NCBI GenBank assembly: GCA_001632435.1
Contig: KV424132.1
Coordinates: forward strand, 1-39,765
DNA from: Calocera cornea HHB12733
Taxonomy: Eukaryota > Basidiomycota > Dacrymycetes > Dacrymycetales > Dacrymycetaceae
DNA: 39,765 bases
Reading direction: 5' to 3'
Shown here: piece after piece, positions 31,943 to 39,765 of the stretch
How the letters are laid out: each line of letters begins with the position of its first letter
How positions within the stretch are numbered: the first letter of the stretch is position 1
The notes under the pieces: model-generated
Told to the model about the DNA's origin: nothing
Database searches by the model: none
The model's input: the letters and a program-made list of their open reading frames with translations, nothing else
Program-made: the position numbers and the translations under genes

Positions 31943-32026
31943 GGTACCGAAGTCCTAAGTGGACAGCTGCTCCTGTCGCCTGTTTAGGGGGTCGAGCTGT
32001 CCGCCCAGGACTTCTGCCCGCGTACC
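31943..32026. repeat. Candidate left-end hairpin of motif segment 1
   Basis: Three nested complementary blocks flank a loop of 26 bp: GGTAC (31943-31947) with GTACC (32022-32026), GAAGTCCT (31949-31956) with AGGACTTC (32007-32014), and GGACAGCT (31961-31968) with AGCTGTCC (31995-32002). The inner stem shares GGACAG with the hairpin at 37283-37317, so the pair may mark the ends of one element. No target-site duplication was established. Confidence 0.65.
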
Positions 32027-32260
32027 TAACTGGTCAGCTCCGCCGCCACCCATCTCGGTCTTAAGATAAGGCGAAAATCATTTCTTCTCGTTGCTTCCGC
32101 TCCGGCGGAGTTTCAATCCCTGCACCAGGCTGCGTGCATATAGCCATTGCCTGCCAGCCAGGCACTCTCCCTGGTACGATCGTCACTCCTCTCCCCTGGT
32201 TGCCCCGATCGTCTATCCCCTCCCCTGGTCCCCGATTGTCTCTCCCTTCTCCTGGTCTCG

Positions 32261-33764
32261 ATGTCTGGTCTACCCGACCCCGGTGGAGTGTTTGTTCCCC
32301 CCGACATGGGCCGCCCGCTCCCGGATCACCCCCTGTCCGCCAAGATGGATTTGACCGACCAGGAACTCCGTACGCTGCTCGCTATGCTCCCTGGGCCACC
32401 CGACAAGTACCTCCTGGGCCGCACGTTGCGCGTTGCCGAAGACGGCGACTACAATCGCACGGATCCACGGCCCATGCGCCTCACGGTCAACGTGAGGTAT
32501 GTCTACGAGGACGGCAACCCGATGTGCTACCACTTCTGCCCTGCCAAGGTCATCCCTGAGCGTGCGGCGTGGGATCGCAATTGGACATTCCCTGTCTACA
32601 GTGCGTTGTCCTCCTAACCAGGAATTCCTGGTCATTTGCTAACTTTCTCTGTCCCAGTTTGCCCATTCTACGAGGACGACTATGATAACTGTACATACAA
32701 AGGTGCGCACCCGTTCTTTCCTGGTCAACCAGGATTCTTTACTGACTTCTCATTCAGAAACTATGTCCCAACGCCACTGGCGAGTGACACGTCGTCTGCC
32801 CCTGGTCATCCCTCAGAAGGCACAGAACTTTCCTCGTGGAGTCAGGCCTCACTACGCCCTCCGTCGTCCGCATCTCCACGGTCTCGCGTTCGTGGGCGCT
32901 CTTCCCCAGGCTCCCGATGTACAACGCAACCCGGCCGATTACCTGCACGACCCCGAGTCAGACGAGGATATTGAGCCTGGTCAGGCCCTTCCCGTGCGTC
33001 GTGGCCCTCAACCAGGGCGCTGTCATACTGACTTGCCCTAGAACGATCCGGTTTCCTGGGCCCGCATCGACTGGGATTTGCGCGCCGAAGAGCTCATGCA
33101 GTTCTTTCGCTCTGCCGACGGCTTCCCGTTCGCCGCGTACTTCCTTCGCGAGCTACTGGAAGAGTACCAGTTCCTGGCGGATGATGTGCACCAGGCGCTG
33201 TTGACCGAGCTGAAGGACCTGGTGCGCGTTATCGTCTCTTTTCACTTCCTGGTATACCAACTAACCAGGAATCAGGGAAAGCGACCTCCTGGAATGCCCG
33301 ACTGGCCCAGGCCCAACAACGACTACTGGAAGCGCCGCCTGCAGCAGTTCTCCGACTTCATGGGCACGAGCAACCCCGAGCCAATGTTCGAGCAGCGTCA
33401 AGCTATCCCCAAGCAGTTCCTGGTCACCCAATTCCTCCTCATGAAGCCGCTCCAGGACGCGAACGCGCACATGAACATCAACTGGCAGAAAGCCCTGTAC
33501 ATCGTCGAGCACCGAATCGCCGTTACGGACCGCTTCTTCGAGAGGACAAACTTCCGCTCCGATCGCATGACCGAAGGGCAGTTTCAGGATGCCAAGGTCG
33601 TCATGGAGCAGATCGCTCCCAGTTCAGCTCGTCGTGACCGCACTCGCGCTGAAAAGGAGGCTCGGGGCGAAGTCGGTCCTCTCCGTCAACCCCCTGCCAA
33701 CTATCCTGGTCTGGCACCTGCAAATCAACATTTTCCTGGTCGCCGTGGTCGCGGGTCGGCATAG
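32261..33764 (+). CDS. Hypothetical 429-residue protein of motif segment 1
   Basis: The inferred exons are 32261-32600, 32658-32702, 32758-32993, 33042-33221 and 33276-33764, all in phase. I recognise no family. Visible features are a proline-rich start, a Cys-containing stretch across the first introns (CYHFCPAKV, then CPFYEDDYDNC), an acidic patch (ESDEDIE), and a helix-rich middle (ELMQFFRSAD, LRELLEEYQFL). A basic tail ends in PGRRGRGS. The four introns (48-57 bp) all begin GTGCG and all contain the CCTGGT/ACCAGG motif, three of them as inverted pairs. It is the only protein of the segment with no assigned role, so it is a candidate for the factor that reads the motif. That is speculation. 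Confidence 0.7.
32617..32632. repeat. 16-bp perfect palindrome ACCAGGAATTCCTGGT, copy 1
   Basis: It lies inside the first intron (32601-32657) of the unknown gene. The identical 16 bp recurs at 36636-36651 inside an intron of the alpha-kinase gene. A related everted pair (TCCTGGTCAACCAGGA, 32719-32734) is in the second intron. Confidence 0.95.
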
Positions 33765-34098
33765 GTTGGGTTAGGGTTCGTGGGATACCAGGAGGTGGGT
33801 TCGGTTATACTACCGCTACTGATACCTTTAGTACTTCTAGGATACCAGGAACCTGTAAGGTAGGTTACAAAGCTAGGGTTAGGATTACGGGTTATGTCAA
33901 ATGGATTACATCCTGCGTTTGGAATTGCACTTGCACACGACAACCAGGAGTGACTGCCATCTACCAATGAAATGCACGTTGTATTACTGCATGCATTTGG
34001 ACTATCAAGATTCAACGAGCGACTAGAGTTAGACCAGGATATAGGTTAGGGTTACATGTAAAGAATGACGGCAGTTGACTATACACCGAAGCCGCAAT
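33765..34098. other. Convergent intergenic region with TTAGGG-like repeats
   Basis: This 334-bp gap separates the 3' ends of the unknown gene and the alpha-kinase gene. It contains four or more CCTGGT/ACCAGG copies and three TAGGGTT/GGTTAGG stretches (33768-33778, about 33874-33882 and 34043-34053) that resemble fungal telomere repeats. They are scattered, not tandem. No gene is seen. Confidence 0.6.
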
Positions 34099-36986
34099 TT
34101 ACTCGATCGAAACACCATTTCCAGGTTTTTCGACTCCCTCCCCCTCAGTACCACTGAGCTCTGTCTCCTTGGCGACTTTCTGCTGCAACAAACGAGCGCT
34201 TTGACGACCAGGGAGAATCACTTTCTTTCGCTTTGCTGGACGACCAGGCATCGACTCAGGCTGTGGTTCCTGGTCAGTTTCCTTCGGTGGCGTCCAACCA
34301 CTATGGCTCGCTTCGGATTCCAGAGCCTGGTCATCCGAAACAAACAGCGGCAATTCACCAGGAACATCAGTCTCACCCAGTTCCTGGTCGATCACCTCCT
34401 GCACAGAGGGCAGGCTGCGGTTGGACTCGGACGCGCCCAGTAAGTCGATGACACATACATCACTCCTGGTGCTCTGCAGAGGGACCAGGTCAAAGGCCTT
34501 GCAGAATTCGTTGCACTGGTGAAGCATTTGGAACTCGTTGAATGCTGAGCTCACGTTCCCATCACCAAAAATCGCTCCCAGATCGCTATACGCATGCATG
34601 AGTGACCGGGAGCCCTTCCTGGTCAATTGAAGAATGCACGCACGGATTGGTGACGATCTGGGGATCACTCAGCAAGGTAAGAGATCCTACAGAGTGGTCA
34701 GGTTCTACCAGGATTAGTCCGATAGGGAGTTCTGGCTCACCCTGGTAGTCGGAAATGAATGCATGTCCGCCGGTCTTCACATACTGTATGTGCTGACAGA
34801 ACGACAGAAACCTCCCAACACGACCAGGAGGACCAACAGTCTCGCGTGGGATCGGTGAGGCATTGGAGATGAATTTGACGAAGTGAGAGCCTTTTTGGCC
34901 CCTCGCCTCCTGGGTGGTGACCAGTTCCTCGATCAAGATGACCAGGCCTTTGTGCTTGTCATCACTGTTGGGCCCGTACTGGAACAAGCCACCCCGGACC
35001 ATTCGTGTCTCTGGAATATCCAATTGTGCTGCTGCCGATCCAGGATGTGACTGTTGATACTTCTTCACAAATGCCTTGCAGAGCTCGTGAAGACTTGTCG
35101 CCCAGTAGAGTAAGTTGGCTTCCTGTTCCAGGAATCGTGTCTCGACCTGCACAGATGCTCGGACTCGGGACCCTCCACGCTGTGTTCGGATAAAGTAGCG
35201 CTTGGCAGCCACTGGGGTCCGCCGTGATACCTCTATTGGTTGATCGGTAAGGTTGTCCCATAGGCCAGGGCGCTCTCCAAGTGTGATTTGAGCGGGATGC
35301 GCGGTCTTGAAGGTACCAGGAGGGCCAAGCATGTTATGGGCATGCTCGTTGATGCGCAACACGCAGTCGCAGCCGTGCTTGTCATAGTCAATCTCCAGGC
35401 GACTCAACGTGTGAACCAGGGTTTGCCAGTCTACAACCGGGATAGGGTGGAACTGACCCTGGGCCGTGATTGTACCTCCTGCCAACATGAGGTGCTATCC
35501 CTGGACCAGGAGAGATGACAGCACACACCTTGGGCACGGAGAACCTTGTTGTGGTCCGAACTGATAAGTGCTCTTCGTATAGCTACCTCATCAGGGCTGC
35601 CTTCGATTCCTGGCCCTGGGCTAACGCGCTTGTTGGGTCGGGGTGTGATGGTATCATCCACTTGAGCATGCTATCGAGTTTGGTACCAGGATGTTGTGTG
35701 AAGAATGATACACGTACTGTTGGTTTATCGGGACCTGTCTCCACCTGGGCCACTTGGTCAACCCGTGCCTCCTGGACTTGCCCAGGAACCACACGACTCC
35801 GTGTCCCATAAGATGGTGTGGGTACTGGCCCTGATCCATTTGAGCGCAATTCCTGGGGTGCATGGGATTGAGAACCAGGAACTGGGAGCGGGAAATTAAG
35901 AGCAGGCAAACATACCACGTCCTCCATCCAGAGCATGACATTGGGCCACACTTCTTTCTTCACCAGGAGAAATACTTCGACTTGATGATTCGGAATGAAA
36001 GCACGGCTAGTGATACCATTCTTGGTAACCTCCCGGAAACACTGGTCATACATGGGTGGGATGTCGGGGTGCTTCTCCAGATCGGCCAGGCCTGGCCCAC
36101 AAAGCTCAAAGTCGACCAGTTTGAATGGGTAGTTGTGCGTATCGCGTTGTATCTTTCTGTACAGCTCCGTGTAGAGATACTGCTTCAGCTGGGCAGGCAA
36201 AAGGGCTGCAGGTACACCGTTCAAGCGTTCGTATGTGTTCTGGTAGTGGGTTAAAATTCGGTTCCTGGTTGACAAGTGATTTACACCTACACCAAGCTGC
36301 CGAGGCTTGATCTTGCCTTCTACCAGGTGCTGCACTGAGGCATTCACCCTCACCAGTTCTGCTTTGGGTCCTGAAACGGTCATTCGGACCACTTGGCGAT
36401 TCTGGTGGTAGGCAGCATGATTGGCATTGTACCCAAATGCCTGGGGCCCAGGCGTTGGGGTCATGGCTGGGAATGCGCCCTGGAACGGATGCTGAAAAGC
36501 GGCTAAGGTGTTGCGTCCAGGTAAATGGGCCGTTGCCAGACTTGTCAATGGAACACCTGGTTCAGCCAATGGCAGCGCGTGAAGCTGCAATCCAATGGCC
36601 TGGACGGGAGACTTTCCTCCTGGAGAACGTCAGCTACCAGGAATTCCTGGTGCATGGGTTTGCTCACCAGGGAAGTGAAGCCTCTGCGCACTAGCTGTCT
36701 GCTTGCGGAGCTCAGCCAAGGCATCCGGACTGAAGAGGTCAGTTGGAATGACACTCCCGGAGCCCTCAGGTGCCCTTCCTCCCACAGGGCGTCGGATTGT
36801 ACCAGGCTTGGCCTGGTAGTGCTGAAAACAGGGCAGGCATACCCTCTGCGGAGCCAGTGCAACGCCGTCTGGCCCCATGGGTCGGATAACCTGGAAGGGA
36901 TCATTCGGTCCAATGATCGTGTGGCAGCTGCGTCGCTCGCAGAGAGTGCCTTCCCACCCAGTCAGGATAGGCATGAGTTCGTCCAT
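34099..36986 (-). CDS. Alpha-kinase (MHCK/EF2K family) domain protein
   Basis: Minus-strand exons 36986-36668, 36619-35718, 35670-35529, 35478-34644 and 34585-34099 are in phase and give about 894 residues. The N terminus has paired cysteines (TLCERRSC, CLPCFQHY) resembling a zinc-binding module, then a long unrecognised middle. The C-terminal alpha-kinase domain shows LIEELV, FCQHIQYVKTGGHAFISDYQG, LLSDPQIVTNP, FGDGNVSS and the HQCNEFCKAF zinc motif (H-x-C-N-x-x-C) that ends this fold. A basic RPAKRKK near the C terminus may be nuclear targeting. The start is uncertain: the first in-frame ATG is used, but an acceptor at about 37020 suggests another 5' exon. Such kinases phosphorylate Ser/Thr and are abundant in mushroom fungi. 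Several introns carry the CCTGGT motif. Confidence 0.82.
36636..36651. repeat. 16-bp perfect palindrome ACCAGGAATTCCTGGT, copy 2
   Basis: It lies inside the first intron (36620-36667) of the minus-strand alpha-kinase model and is identical over 16 bp to the copy at 32617-32632, although the surrounding intron sequences differ. Confidence 0.95.
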
Positions 36987-37754
36987 GGGGCGCACCAGCC
37001 AAGGGGGGAGAGAGTTCACTGTTGGCAGGGGAAGAGGATGAGACCAAGATACTTAGATGGGCGTTTGAGGGGTATTTCCCACCAGGAAATGGAAACAGGA
37101 TGCTGCGCAGTACTGAGTTCTCCTGGTGTTTAGAATCCGCCCTGCCCCACCCTGGGTTCCATGAGCCCATTGGGACGTTTCGGGGCCCTGGTCAAGGACA
37201 TTGCTGACCAGGAAAACAATATATCTTCAATGTTGTGGTTGGAAATGCTCCGGTCCAATTGGGACACCCGGAATCCGCTGCCGTGGACAGCTCGTATGCA
37301 CCCAACTACCTGTCCACTAGGGTGACAGATCCGGGTCTGTCCCTATTGCGCCACATGTCGGGATTGTCCGGAATTCTCGGGGCGTCGTGAAACATCCGTT
37401 GGTCACGTCATTCGTCCACCATAGAAACAACATTCATTCCCCCCTGGTGGGTGGATCACCACGCAATAAGGCTCGGTCACATCCCAGGCTGTGATAATGG
37501 ATGACTTTCCGTAGACCCAGATACACAGATGGGTACCAATCCCGGAGGCAAAGTCACAGATTGCCTCCGTGTACGCAAATCCGTAGGATGCGCATTCGGC
37601 CGCACGCAGACCATACTTTGGTCCCGTGCACCACGCAGATCACACCATTTGCATCCGCTCTTCCACAGGGGGGCTGCTGACAGCTGTCGCCCCCCCCCAC
37701 ATCCTCACCCTCGGCTCACCACTGCCCCCGATTGGCTCCTCGCTGTCTCTCGTC
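36987..37754. other. Region between the alpha-kinase and the RPA1-like gene
   Basis: The divergent upstream regions of both genes lie here. It probably includes an unplaced 5' exon of the alpha-kinase (for example an ATG at 37201 on the minus strand). It also has the right-end hairpin, a second small hairpin GACAGA...TCTGTC (37324-37341), the last CCTGGT copies (to about 37208, one more at about 37443) and the first AGGATGCGC of segment 2 (37585-37593). The two motif zones barely overlap. Confidence 0.55.
37283..37317. repeat. Candidate right-end hairpin of motif segment 1
   Basis: GTGGACAG (37283-37290) is perfectly complementary to CTGTCCAC (37310-37317) across a 19-bp loop. GTGGACAGCT also matches the left-end hairpin (AGTGGACAGCT at about 31958-31968). 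CCTAGTGGACAG, read on the minus strand here, resembles CCTAAGTGGACAG on the left, as expected for degenerate terminal inverted repeats. Confidence 0.6.
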
Positions 37755-39765
37755 ATGCCCGATCCATCCGCTCAGCCCACACCCAAATTAACTGGGCCGG
37801 CCCCTGCCGGCCAGTCGCTCACCCCTGGCACATGCCAGCGCATCCTGCACAACAAACTTGACCGCACGGCCTTGCCCAACGTTCAGCTCATCAACTGGGA
37901 GGAGAACGTGACCGCCAGCGGTCGCGCCCGCGACCCACCCCTCTTCACGTGAGTTCGCCCGTTCCCCAGAGGATGCGCATCCTGACCAAGTGAGCAGCAT
38001 ATACATCTCCGATGGCAAGTTCTGTCTTGCTTGCGTTGCTGGACGCGACGTCGTGTGGCAGCTGGAGACGTATCGTCTCAGGGAGCGCGATGAGGTCAAG
38101 GTGGTTGGGTACAATGTGTGGACCGACCCGAGGAAGAAAGGGTGCGCATCCTCTCTTTCTCTTTCCTTCAGCCAGGATGCGCTGACCATGCCCTTTCTAG
38201 CTGTTACTCGATCCTCATCCACAACCTCTATCATGTCAAGGCGCATCCTAATCGCATCGGTCGACTCACTTACCCGCCCAACGTGGACTTCACTCGCTCC
38301 ATCGCATACGTCAGGCTGCGCAGCCTAACGCCCACATACGAATGGCTCCATGTCGATGATCAGCTCCGCCTGTTCATCGCGCCTCGCGTACTCCAAGGCG
38401 GCGAAGCAAACATCCCCGTGGCCCCTCGTGAGGTTGCGCCAGTCGGCGGGTGGACATTTGCAGTCGGTCAACGCCTCCCCGCTTATGCTGAGGACTTCGT
38501 GATCCCAGCCCACACACCCCTCGATCCAAACGGCCGCGTACAGCGAGGCCTGGAACATGTACTCTGGATGCCTGGGCACGGCTGGCGCTGGGGCGCATCC
38601 TTTGCCGAGATCCAAGCCGCACAGGGTGCGCATCCTTACAATCCGACCACCGAATTGCACTTCATCCCCAATCCGCCGGCTGTTCTGCGTCCTGCGCAGA
38701 CTCCTCCGCCTGCCCCGGTCTACCGCGGCCCTCTCGTTTACCCTCCTGACGCTGTTCGCCCTGACCACAACAACCCGGCGCATCCTGGCTTTCACGTCGT
38801 GGCCAACATCATCCTCGGTCACAACGTGGACGTCTGGGTGCGCGTGACTCGTATCGAAAGCAAGGGGTCGACCACCGACCTGGTGGTCCATGACGCGTCC
38901 GGGGCCATCGACATCGTTGTGCGTGCATCCCTCAAGCCGCACTTGACCAGGATGCGCCTCGGCCGTTGCTACCAAATCTACAATGCTGCCTGTGTTCAGA
39001 CGCGCGTCTACTGCCGCACGTTCCATCCGGTGCAACTCTCCATTAACGATACGTCTGCCGTCTTTGAGGTCGGTGGCGCATCCTCCCAGGTTGCGCCAAT
39101 GCTGACCTTCCTCCCGTTAGATTGACAACCCCACCGTGCCAGAGTGGGTGCTCAACCCATGGCGACTCAACAGCCTCATCCGCGGCGTGTCCAACAAACC
39201 TATTGGTGAGTTCGCGCCCATGAGGATGCGCATCCTGCGTGCTGATATACCAGCAGATGTTTGGTGCGTGGTCATGAACACCAGCGCTATCATCCCCGGC
39301 AAGGCCAAGGGCGATGCAACAAAGGTAGGTCTGCACGCTCCGAGGTTGCGCAACCTGTCTGACGTCACGCAGGGCTGGGACACGCCTCCCAACTTGACGC
39401 GTTGCGAGGCCTGGGTTACGGACAAGACGTTTTCTGCGGTCCGGCTCATGGCATGGGACGAGTTCCCCGAGCAACTGTACGGACGCGATGGGGAGGTGGT
39501 CCTGCTTCACAATGTGGTGATGGAAGATGGGCGCCGGGACGAAATCTGCCTGAAGACGCTCCACGGGCTTACCGAGATCTTGCGTGGCCAGGATGCGCCC
39601 TCGCTTGCTGACGACTACAACGACATGGTGGCTTGGTGAGTGCGGCGCATCCTCAGGTTGCGCCAACCTTCATGATGCGCATCCTGATCGTTTCACAGGT
39701 GGAACAACCCAATTGGTCCTGTCTGCCTGGACCCCTCGGTTGACCACTTGCAGTGCAAGTGGTCC
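37755..39765 (+). CDS. RPA1-like single-stranded DNA-binding protein (partial, runs off window)
   Basis: RPA1 is the large subunit of replication protein A, a chain of OB folds that coats single-stranded DNA. The inferred exons are 37755-37948, 37998-38141, 38201-39068, 39121-39205, 39254-39324, 39373-39635 and 39699 onward, all in phase. The first about 115 residues match the N-terminal RPA1 OB fold (NVQLINWEEN, IYISDGKFCLACVAGRDV). A proline-rich linker follows. An OB fold resembling DBD-A spans VDVWVRVTRIESKGSTTDLV to YCRTFHPVQLSINDTSAVFE. A second resembling DBD-B includes VWCVVMNTSAI, RLMAWDEFPEQLYG and VLLHNVV. The C-terminal part is missing from the window. RPA1-like genes are known cargo of Helitron transposons in plants and other lineages. 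Here every intron carries the segment's private motif, which a housekeeping RPA1 gene would not be expected to show. Confidence 0.85.
37970..37983. repeat. Palindrome AGGATGCGCATCCT, intron 1 of the RPA1-like gene
   Basis: This perfect 14-bp palindrome lies inside intron 37949-37997. The same sequence recurs at 39223-39236, and base-substituted but still palindromic versions occur at 38313 and 39343. Confidence 0.97.
38313..38326. repeat. Palindrome AGGCTGCGCAGCCT in an exon
   Basis: The variable position is C on the left arm and G on the right, so the palindrome is perfect although it differs from the AGGATGCGCATCCT form. It is the only full palindrome located in coding sequence. Confidence 0.97.
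39223..39236. repeat. Palindrome AGGATGCGCATCCT, intron 4 of the RPA1-like gene
   Basis: It lies in intron 39206-39253 and is identical over 14 bp to the copy in intron 1 (37970-37983), while the rest of the two introns shows no obvious similarity beyond splice signals and GTGAGTTCGC at the donor. Confidence 0.97.
39343..39356. repeat. Palindrome AGGTTGCGCAACCT, intron 5 of the RPA1-like gene
   Basis: It lies in intron 39325-39372. The variable position is T/A instead of A/T, a paired change that keeps perfect two-fold symmetry. Confidence 0.97.

Follow-up and report, generated by a model that had tools for sequence, protein, structure and literature searches.

The transposon and its genes

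The window, that is, the whole 39,765-bp stretch of Calocera cornea HHB12733 contig KV424132.1 analysed here (contig C219 in our set), ends inside a terminal inverted repeat (TIR) transposon of the PIF/Harbinger type, hereafter F1, which is filled with copies of a short word, AGGNTGCGC (Table 1). F1 is truncated by the contig end, and the 2267 bp present correspond to its left third. Full copies are located on contigs C62 (6255 bp), C2 (6188 bp) and C53 (6167 bp), with the 3-bp duplications ACT, AGT and AGT, respectively. Three short copies of 403‒489 bp (C7, C109 and C152) have the same ends as the full F1, and in all six copies with both ends read, ANT-form duplications match on both sides. 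The end of contig C179 is also F1 and is identical to the window copy over all 2267 bp, suggesting that F1 transposed recently and broke the assembly.

The F1 genes encode an RPA70-like protein, a DDE_Tnp_4 transposase and a SANT-like protein. The transposase matches DDE_Tnp_4 (Pfam) above the cut-off in C2 (E = 8e-10) and C53 (E = 1.4e-11), and this transposase, together with the TIRs and the 3-bp duplications, places F1 in PIF/Harbinger. The Rep_fac-A_C domain of the RPA70-like gene was detected in the sister copy C2 (E = 9e-8, above the Pfam cut-off); the corresponding part of the gene lies past the contig end in the window. Since the predicted structure of the RPA-like protein P0121 is uninformative (mean predicted local distance difference test (pLDDT) score 29.6) and its sequence matched no solved structure, the label "RPA70-like" rests on Pfam. 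The SANT-like protein matches DUF6818 with E = 2.6e-5, 2 bits under the cut-off, and Myb_DNA-bind_5 with E of just 0.27, and the precomputed annotation PF20681 (DUF6818) is present on P0123‒P0125. Its predicted model (mean pLDDT 60.8) has four helices at residues 110‒186 and a confident long helix at residues 260‒345, which is perhaps a coiled coil. In a Foldseek search with this model, Myb domains rank high, none of them significantly (E of 0.45 or more).

Genome-wide, the RPA C-terminal family has 29 matches, of which at least those in C2, C53, C62, C83, C11 and C27 lie inside transposons, and RPA-like genes may be a common transposon cargo in C. cornea. The transposase start codon lies inside a AGGATGCGC motif in C2 (L024, ~8260) and C62, but not in C53.

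Table 1 Features of F1 and of the adjoining element in the window
Feature	Position	Strand	Remark
F1, PIF/Harbinger-type TIR transposon, 5' part (2267 bp)	37499..39765	+	boundary common to other copies; terminus GGATGACTTTCCGTAGAC
AAT, left-side 3-bp duplication of F1	37496..37498	.	right side absent from window
Array of 26 AGGNTGCGC/GCGCANCCT half-sites, dyads at 37970, 38139, 38313, 38623, 39223, 39343	37585..39685	.	exact matching; 0.16 expected
RPA70-like gene (NCBI hypothetical protein CALCODRAFT_487662, P0122, 541 aa)	37755..39636	+	exact spliced model
Exons 1-3, RPA70-like gene	37755-37948, 37998-38141, 38201-39068	+	exact spliced model
Exons 4-6, RPA70-like gene	39121-39205, 39257-39324, 39373-39636	+	exact spliced model
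Intron 1, contains dyad 37970	37949..37997	+	gene model
Intron 2, 5' splice site within dyad 38139-38152; another half-site at 38174	38142..38200	+	gene model
Intron 3, inverted half-sites 39076 and 39088	39069..39120	+	gene model
Intron 4, contains dyad 39223	39206..39256	+	gene model
Intron 5, contains dyad 39343	39325..39372	+	gene model
Second transposon-like element, dispersed word ACCAGG (30+25), alpha-kinase gene	31944..37421	.	adjoins F1
Alpha-kinase open reading frame of second element	34586..35488	-	PF02816, E 2e-6, above cut-off

The array of half-sites and dyads in F1

The array in the window consists of 13 forward and 13 reverse half-sites, and just two more (9534 and 20802) occur in the rest of the window. 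In 1000 dinucleotide-preserving shuffles of the array region, made with purpose-written code, the mean was 0.16 half-sites and the maximum 3. The full copies hold 59 (C62), 61 (C2) and 61 (C53) half-sites, while 300 shuffles of each gave means of 0.3‒0.4 and a maximum of 3; the part-copies hold 26 (window), 57 (C83) and 18 (C155), with shuffle means over all six copies of 0.1‒0.4 and again a maximum of 3. Forward and reverse numbers are about equal in each of these six copies and part-copies. From TIR to TIR the density is ~10 half-sites per kb, with no concentration near the ends of F1, and the short copies hold one or two half-sites each. The array stops at the element ends: five sets of flanks, 33,920 bp in total, contain one half-site, and a few stray half-sites outside carriers lie farther out in the other loci retrieved, at C11:335522, C38:92674, C18:123254 and C62:136087. 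Throughout the scanned genome (32.1 Mb, 302 contigs), the half-site occurs 1242 + 1308 times against 755 + 684 for the reversed control, and the dyad AGGNTGCGCANCCT 110 times against 4.

The offsets preferred by inverted pairs in eight elements are +5, which forms a 14-bp dyad (60 cases), +7 (14 cases) and -10 (8 cases). The window has six dyads of 14 bp, four of which are perfect palindromes in three versions. When candidate words were refined by expectation maximisation, all but AGGNTGCGC drifted. The original prediction, made from the letters of the window, had given about 24 half-sites with 0.06 expected at random; its array is real, the coordinates it listed are correct by exact matching and the expectation is of the right order of magnitude, although two half-sites were missed. 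It had recognised the four palindromes and overlooked the dyads at 38139/38144 and 38623/38628. The symmetric covariation that it described is not borne out across the family, as the N positions are complementary in 17 of 46 F1 dyads from the six copies and part-copies, where independence predicts 15.3. Of its two proposals, a dimeric DNA-site array or a hairpin signal, the dyad array at the DNA level is what we observed, and the hairpin loses support because family-wide covariation of N is absent.

The placement of half-sites relative to genes was evaluated with five gene models, the RPA-like gene (C62 and the window), the transposase (C62 and C2) and the SANT-like gene (C2), whose spans contain 92 sites. 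The density is 33.9 per kb in introns (37/1092 bp), 6.1 in exons (45/7331 bp) and 6.4 outside genes (8/1257 bp), with two further half-sites on boundaries, so that introns are ~5.5 times as dense as exons (P = 7e-13). With 6 bases added on each side, 17 of the 18 annotated introns contain at least one half-site and 16 at least two. Two of these introns look wrong by eye (57 bp in C2 and 176 bp in C62); their omission raises the intron density to 40.7 per kb (35 sites/859 bp). In exons, 22 half-sites are sense and 23 antisense, and five of the six strand/phase classes are occupied. Clusters of half-sites are on average 148‒202 bp apart and mildly more even than random; a nucleosome-like spacing was considered.

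Purifying selection on the DNA of the motifs

F1 copies, which are 63‒69% identical overall, were aligned in nine ordered comparisons. The motif letters are 86‒94% identical, compared with 57‒61% for the 12 bases on each side of the motif and 62‒70% for the other columns. The alignment of copies that the original prediction had proposed thus reveals conserved motif positions between drifted flanks. We also made codon alignments of four transposases (three from F1 and one from a related carrier, F2; 12 ordered pairs) and of two RPA genes (2 ordered pairs). In the pooled alignments, fourfold-degenerate positions are identical in 140/164 cases within motifs and in 814/2276 outside, while amino-acid identity is equal (309/419 in motifs and 4231/5709 outside). 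The contrast is strongest within F1, e.g. 17/17 versus 52/163. Three of the fourteen fourfold comparisons were tested singly and gave P values of 1e-4 to 2e-8; the pooled comparisons are not independent. As related copies are combined in the counts, P values throughout overstate independence.

Since the excess at fourfold positions is accompanied by equal amino-acid conservation, purifying selection acts on the DNA of the motifs, coding exons included. The presence of exonic sites on both strands and in five phases argues against a protein-level cause and also against a strand-bound RNA signal. Protein-level selection as the cause of the array is ruled out by this spread and by the fourfold positions, in agreement with the original prediction, which had excluded it from the different peptides encoded. 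The motifs provide a clean case, obtained from sequence only, of DNA-level selection over transposon coding regions that is readable at synonymous sites.

Other transposons carrying the same word

All 110 dyads were placed: 104 fall into 17 loci and six are singletons (four for the reversed pattern). We read 14 of these loci completely or partially, and every one is a transposon; C175 and C268 are known by transposase match and dyads alone, and C76 was left unread. A DDE_Tnp_4 match is present in 12 of the 17. The carriers comprise four transposon types, F1, F2, F3 and C38/C198, of which F3 belongs to another transposase superfamily. The original prediction had regarded the word as specific to this segment, which is contradicted by the three further transposon types that it fills; its array withstood the genome-wide check of density and composition that it had suggested, the word being neither equally dense across the genome nor explained by composition.

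F2, at C14, C18 and C78, has a transposase 74‒76% alike to that of F1 and a SANT-like protein 37‒38% and 55‒56% alike by part; an RPA gene was not found in F2. F3, at C11 and C27, is a Mutator-like element (MULE; PF10551, E = 3.6e-8 in C11, above the cut-off) with an RPA-like gene 31‒40% alike by part to that of F1. C38 and C198 are copies, 99% alike, of a second Harbinger clade and encode a Myb_DNA-bind_3 protein. No DNA similarity was detected at E = 1e-5 between F1 (copy C2) and the MULE or C38. The two F3 copies contain 49 and 46 half-sites, C38 16 and C198 14, with 0.1‒0.3 in shuffles. Of the 49 half-sites in the C11 copy of the MULE, 46 have C as N, which is not so in F1. The F3 copies (~85% alike) retain 44/48 and 44/45 sites, and their motif columns are 97‒98% identical versus 79‒80%. 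Neither the F1-type transposase nor the SANT-like gene was found in the MULE, and in C38/C198 none of the RPA, F1-type transposase and SANT-like genes was found. A search for the F1-type SANT domain likewise yielded nothing in the MULE and C38, and a weak match in C16 (E = 0.034).

In a blind 8-mer scan with a worst null score of -8.4, the MULE scored -42.7, L040 -20.9 and C16 -16.4. The scan barely or not detected C38 (-8.9) and C198 (-5.8), both of which stand out just by their AGGNTGCGC count. The 7-mer CAGATGA occurs 9 times in C38 (L030) and 8 times in C198 (L043) within 2 to 2.5 kb, an enrichment with higher scores in both (-13.1 and -11.4).

Other transposons with other words

The second element in the window contains ACCAGG 55 times versus 4.9 expected, and its C13 copy (L040, ~72% alike) 54 times versus 4.2. 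ACCAGG is 81‒84% conserved versus 59% in the flanks; twelve other common hexamers of the element, taken as a control, are 66‒80% identical, and several of these overlap ACCAGG. Pairs of ACCAGG lie in apparent introns, e.g. at 32617 and 32720, as judged by eye from the alignment. The element is possibly IS3EU-like. IS3EU elements are recognised by an integrase-like transposase gene opposite an alpha-kinase gene, a 6-bp duplication and TAYGG..CCRTA ends. On the C155 relative, an integrase core gave a weak match below the cut-off (E = 0.004), and no matching inverted ends were found in the second element.

The 3-bp duplication beside F1 starts 75 bp past the aligned end of the second element. The AAT beside F1 in C219 recurs on the right side of the C155 F1, which continues into relatives of the C13 region. 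Given the shared AAT and the related second-element DNA, the C219 end and the C155 start may flank one F1 insertion in the second element.

A Harbinger-type element on C16 (L041, C16:86501-91500) contains GACCAGCA 16 times versus 0.2 expected, and neither ACCAGG nor AGGNTGCGC is present in it. Weaker candidate words, on which we do not rely, are CCACAGCA in C63 (6 times) and GGATAATC in C40 (5 times), at loci L044 and L046, and CGGAAGCA in C9 (L045; 9 times, 8 of them on one strand).

Comparison with known systems

The array resembles the VANC sites of Arabidopsis VANDAL transposons in that a short, 9-bp word is dense in a transposon family and rare elsewhere, that it has family-specific variants (C-type and T-type) with different words in related families, and that introns, which are among the VANC-bound regions, are rich in half-sites. 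According to the VANDAL reports, the sites bound by VANC are mostly non-coding, and many of them form tandem repeats with a single orientation (Hosaka 2017, PMC5735166; Sasaki 2023, PMC10398659). In contrast to this description, the sites in C. cornea are also exonic under synonymous-site selection (45 of the 92 sites in modelled spans) and dispersed on both strands as dyads, and one word extends across transposase superfamilies. Since these layout features of VANDALs fail, we do not count the array as a member of that system.

The TnpA sites of maize Spm are subterminal, unlike the C. cornea array, which runs end to end through coding parts. Spm/CACTA is nevertheless similar in that its own DNA-binding protein, TnpA, has several sites within the element, as summarised in an article citing that work (PMC9921582). 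A binder in C. cornea would, too, probably be element-encoded.

F1 differs from PIF/Harbinger elements, whose canonical duplication is TWA, in its ANT duplications, the extra RPA-like gene and the AGGNTGCGC array. It shares with them, as far as the cited sections describe these elements, the DDE_Tnp_4 transposase, a separate protein that is putatively SANT-like, the TIRs, 3-bp duplications and short copies with the same ends (PMC2836001; PMC12730594). One of these reports, in the part cited, also describes TET/JBP genes on many fungal DNA transposons as a putative silencing-escape module (PMC12730594). As in C. cornea, that module has spread between unrelated superfamilies of transposons within one host; it is an enzyme gene there and a DNA word here.

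Interpretation of the array

We consider it fairly probable that the AGGNTGCGC array is an address for a dimeric DNA-binding factor that acts along the element, is probably transposon-encoded and is used in trans. Strand symmetry, the dyads, the free central N and the selection at the DNA level suggest a dimeric protein that binds double-stranded DNA and reads the element over its full length. AGGNTGCGC would be one half of the site bound by this dimer, often in the form of the dyad AGGNTGCGCANCCT. A sequence-specific factor from one carrier transposon, shared in trans within the nucleus, would then coat the whole element. We infer transposon coding because there is no dyad excess outside the carriers, N differs in F3, and other transposons use other words. 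The likeliest benefit would be shielding of the element from host silencing, in a VANC-like manner, or open chromatin for expression and transposition; by analogy with VANDALs, this protective or chromatin-opening role is a possibility that we hold tentatively.

Two proteins are candidate binders, the SANT-like one encoded by F1 and F2 and the RPA-like one encoded by F1 and the MULE. The SANT-like protein, with four helices and a long helix in its predicted model, may suit the dyad. The RPA-like protein is the sole protein found in both F1 and F3, and C38 has neither candidate. A transposon-encoded binder would thus have to act in trans for at least some of the carriers. It is also conceivable, though the case is still short of even, that transposons of different superfamilies form a few "address guilds", whose members write one word over their full length, also through coding exons, and share one transposon-encoded coating factor by which they are hidden or opened.

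Several observations weigh against this interpretation. No element-encoded protein among the RPA, F1-type transposase and SANT-like proteins is common to all carriers, and the same scan detected no word at the loci L047, L048, L049 and L050, which have RPA-like matches. Comparisons with the F2 copy give a less marked fourfold contrast, e.g. 6/9 versus 46/150, and another has 3/5 in motifs. The complementarity of N is uneven (12/18 in the window and C62, 5/28 in C2, C53, C83 and C155). Introns are richer in half-sites than the 1257 bp outside genes, for which relaxed constraint is no obvious explanation. The even spacing is weak, with a coefficient of variation of 0.36‒0.57 versus 0.63‒0.70 (P = 0.01‒0.23). 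When two rice Harbinger miniature inverted-repeat elements were mutated, the cited part of the report describes promoting internal regions and no shared sequence-specific one (PMC9921582).

The main rival is loading of transposition proteins by the array: the SANT-like protein would bind along the element and help to unite its ends, or would capture the transposase, a role also proposed for the TnpA sites of maize Spm. The confident long helix in the model of the SANT-like protein is compatible with such a role. We regard it as unlikely, however, since the sites are not clustered toward the element ends, copies of 403‒489 bp with just one or two sites still have matching 3-bp duplications, and the MULE, with a different transposase and no detectable F1-type SANT-like gene, still carries the array. 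A host protein might instead read the word, which several transposons would have adopted separately for open chromatin, replication or expression. That four transposon types share the word, including two that lack DNA similarity to F1, fits this explanation, yet dyads outside the carriers are at background (6 versus 4 for the reversed control), suggesting that the host hardly uses them; moreover, N is C in the MULE and not in F1, and different words occur in other transposons of the same nucleus. A host reader thus seems still less probable than protein loading.

The high density in introns, with at least two half-sites in most of them, could suggest that the dyads act in pre-mRNA, e.g. for splicing or for avoiding the small-RNA production that introns trigger, a process known from Cryptococcus work. 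Against such an RNA-level signal stand the balance of sense and antisense exonic sites, the eight sites outside genes and the lack of covariation at N across copies, which make it very improbable. An origin by composition, by tandem duplication or by mere unselected inheritance can practically be dismissed. Copies of one family do have common ancestry, but conservation of the motif columns, and of the fourfold sites in them, is far above that of the flanks, and tandem repeats are absent from the window's part of F1, with one 18-bp tandem row in C2 (L024 5022-10000). Composition as the cause is rejected by the shuffles, which give fewer than 0.5 sites per element.

We thus favour an address for a dimeric, probably transposon-encoded factor. 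We found no earlier description of such arrays in the open full-text literature, which omits most subscription papers. The array suggests that self-recognition through a dispersed word, as in plant VANDALs, evolved in fungi as well and reaches across transposon superfamilies there. It also renders testable how eukaryotic transposons mark themselves against silencing, and scans of transposons for private words are a suggested route to their binding factors. If the shared-factor interpretation is true, the word would be a public good, a second code written over genes and traded, or converged upon, among unrelated selfish elements.

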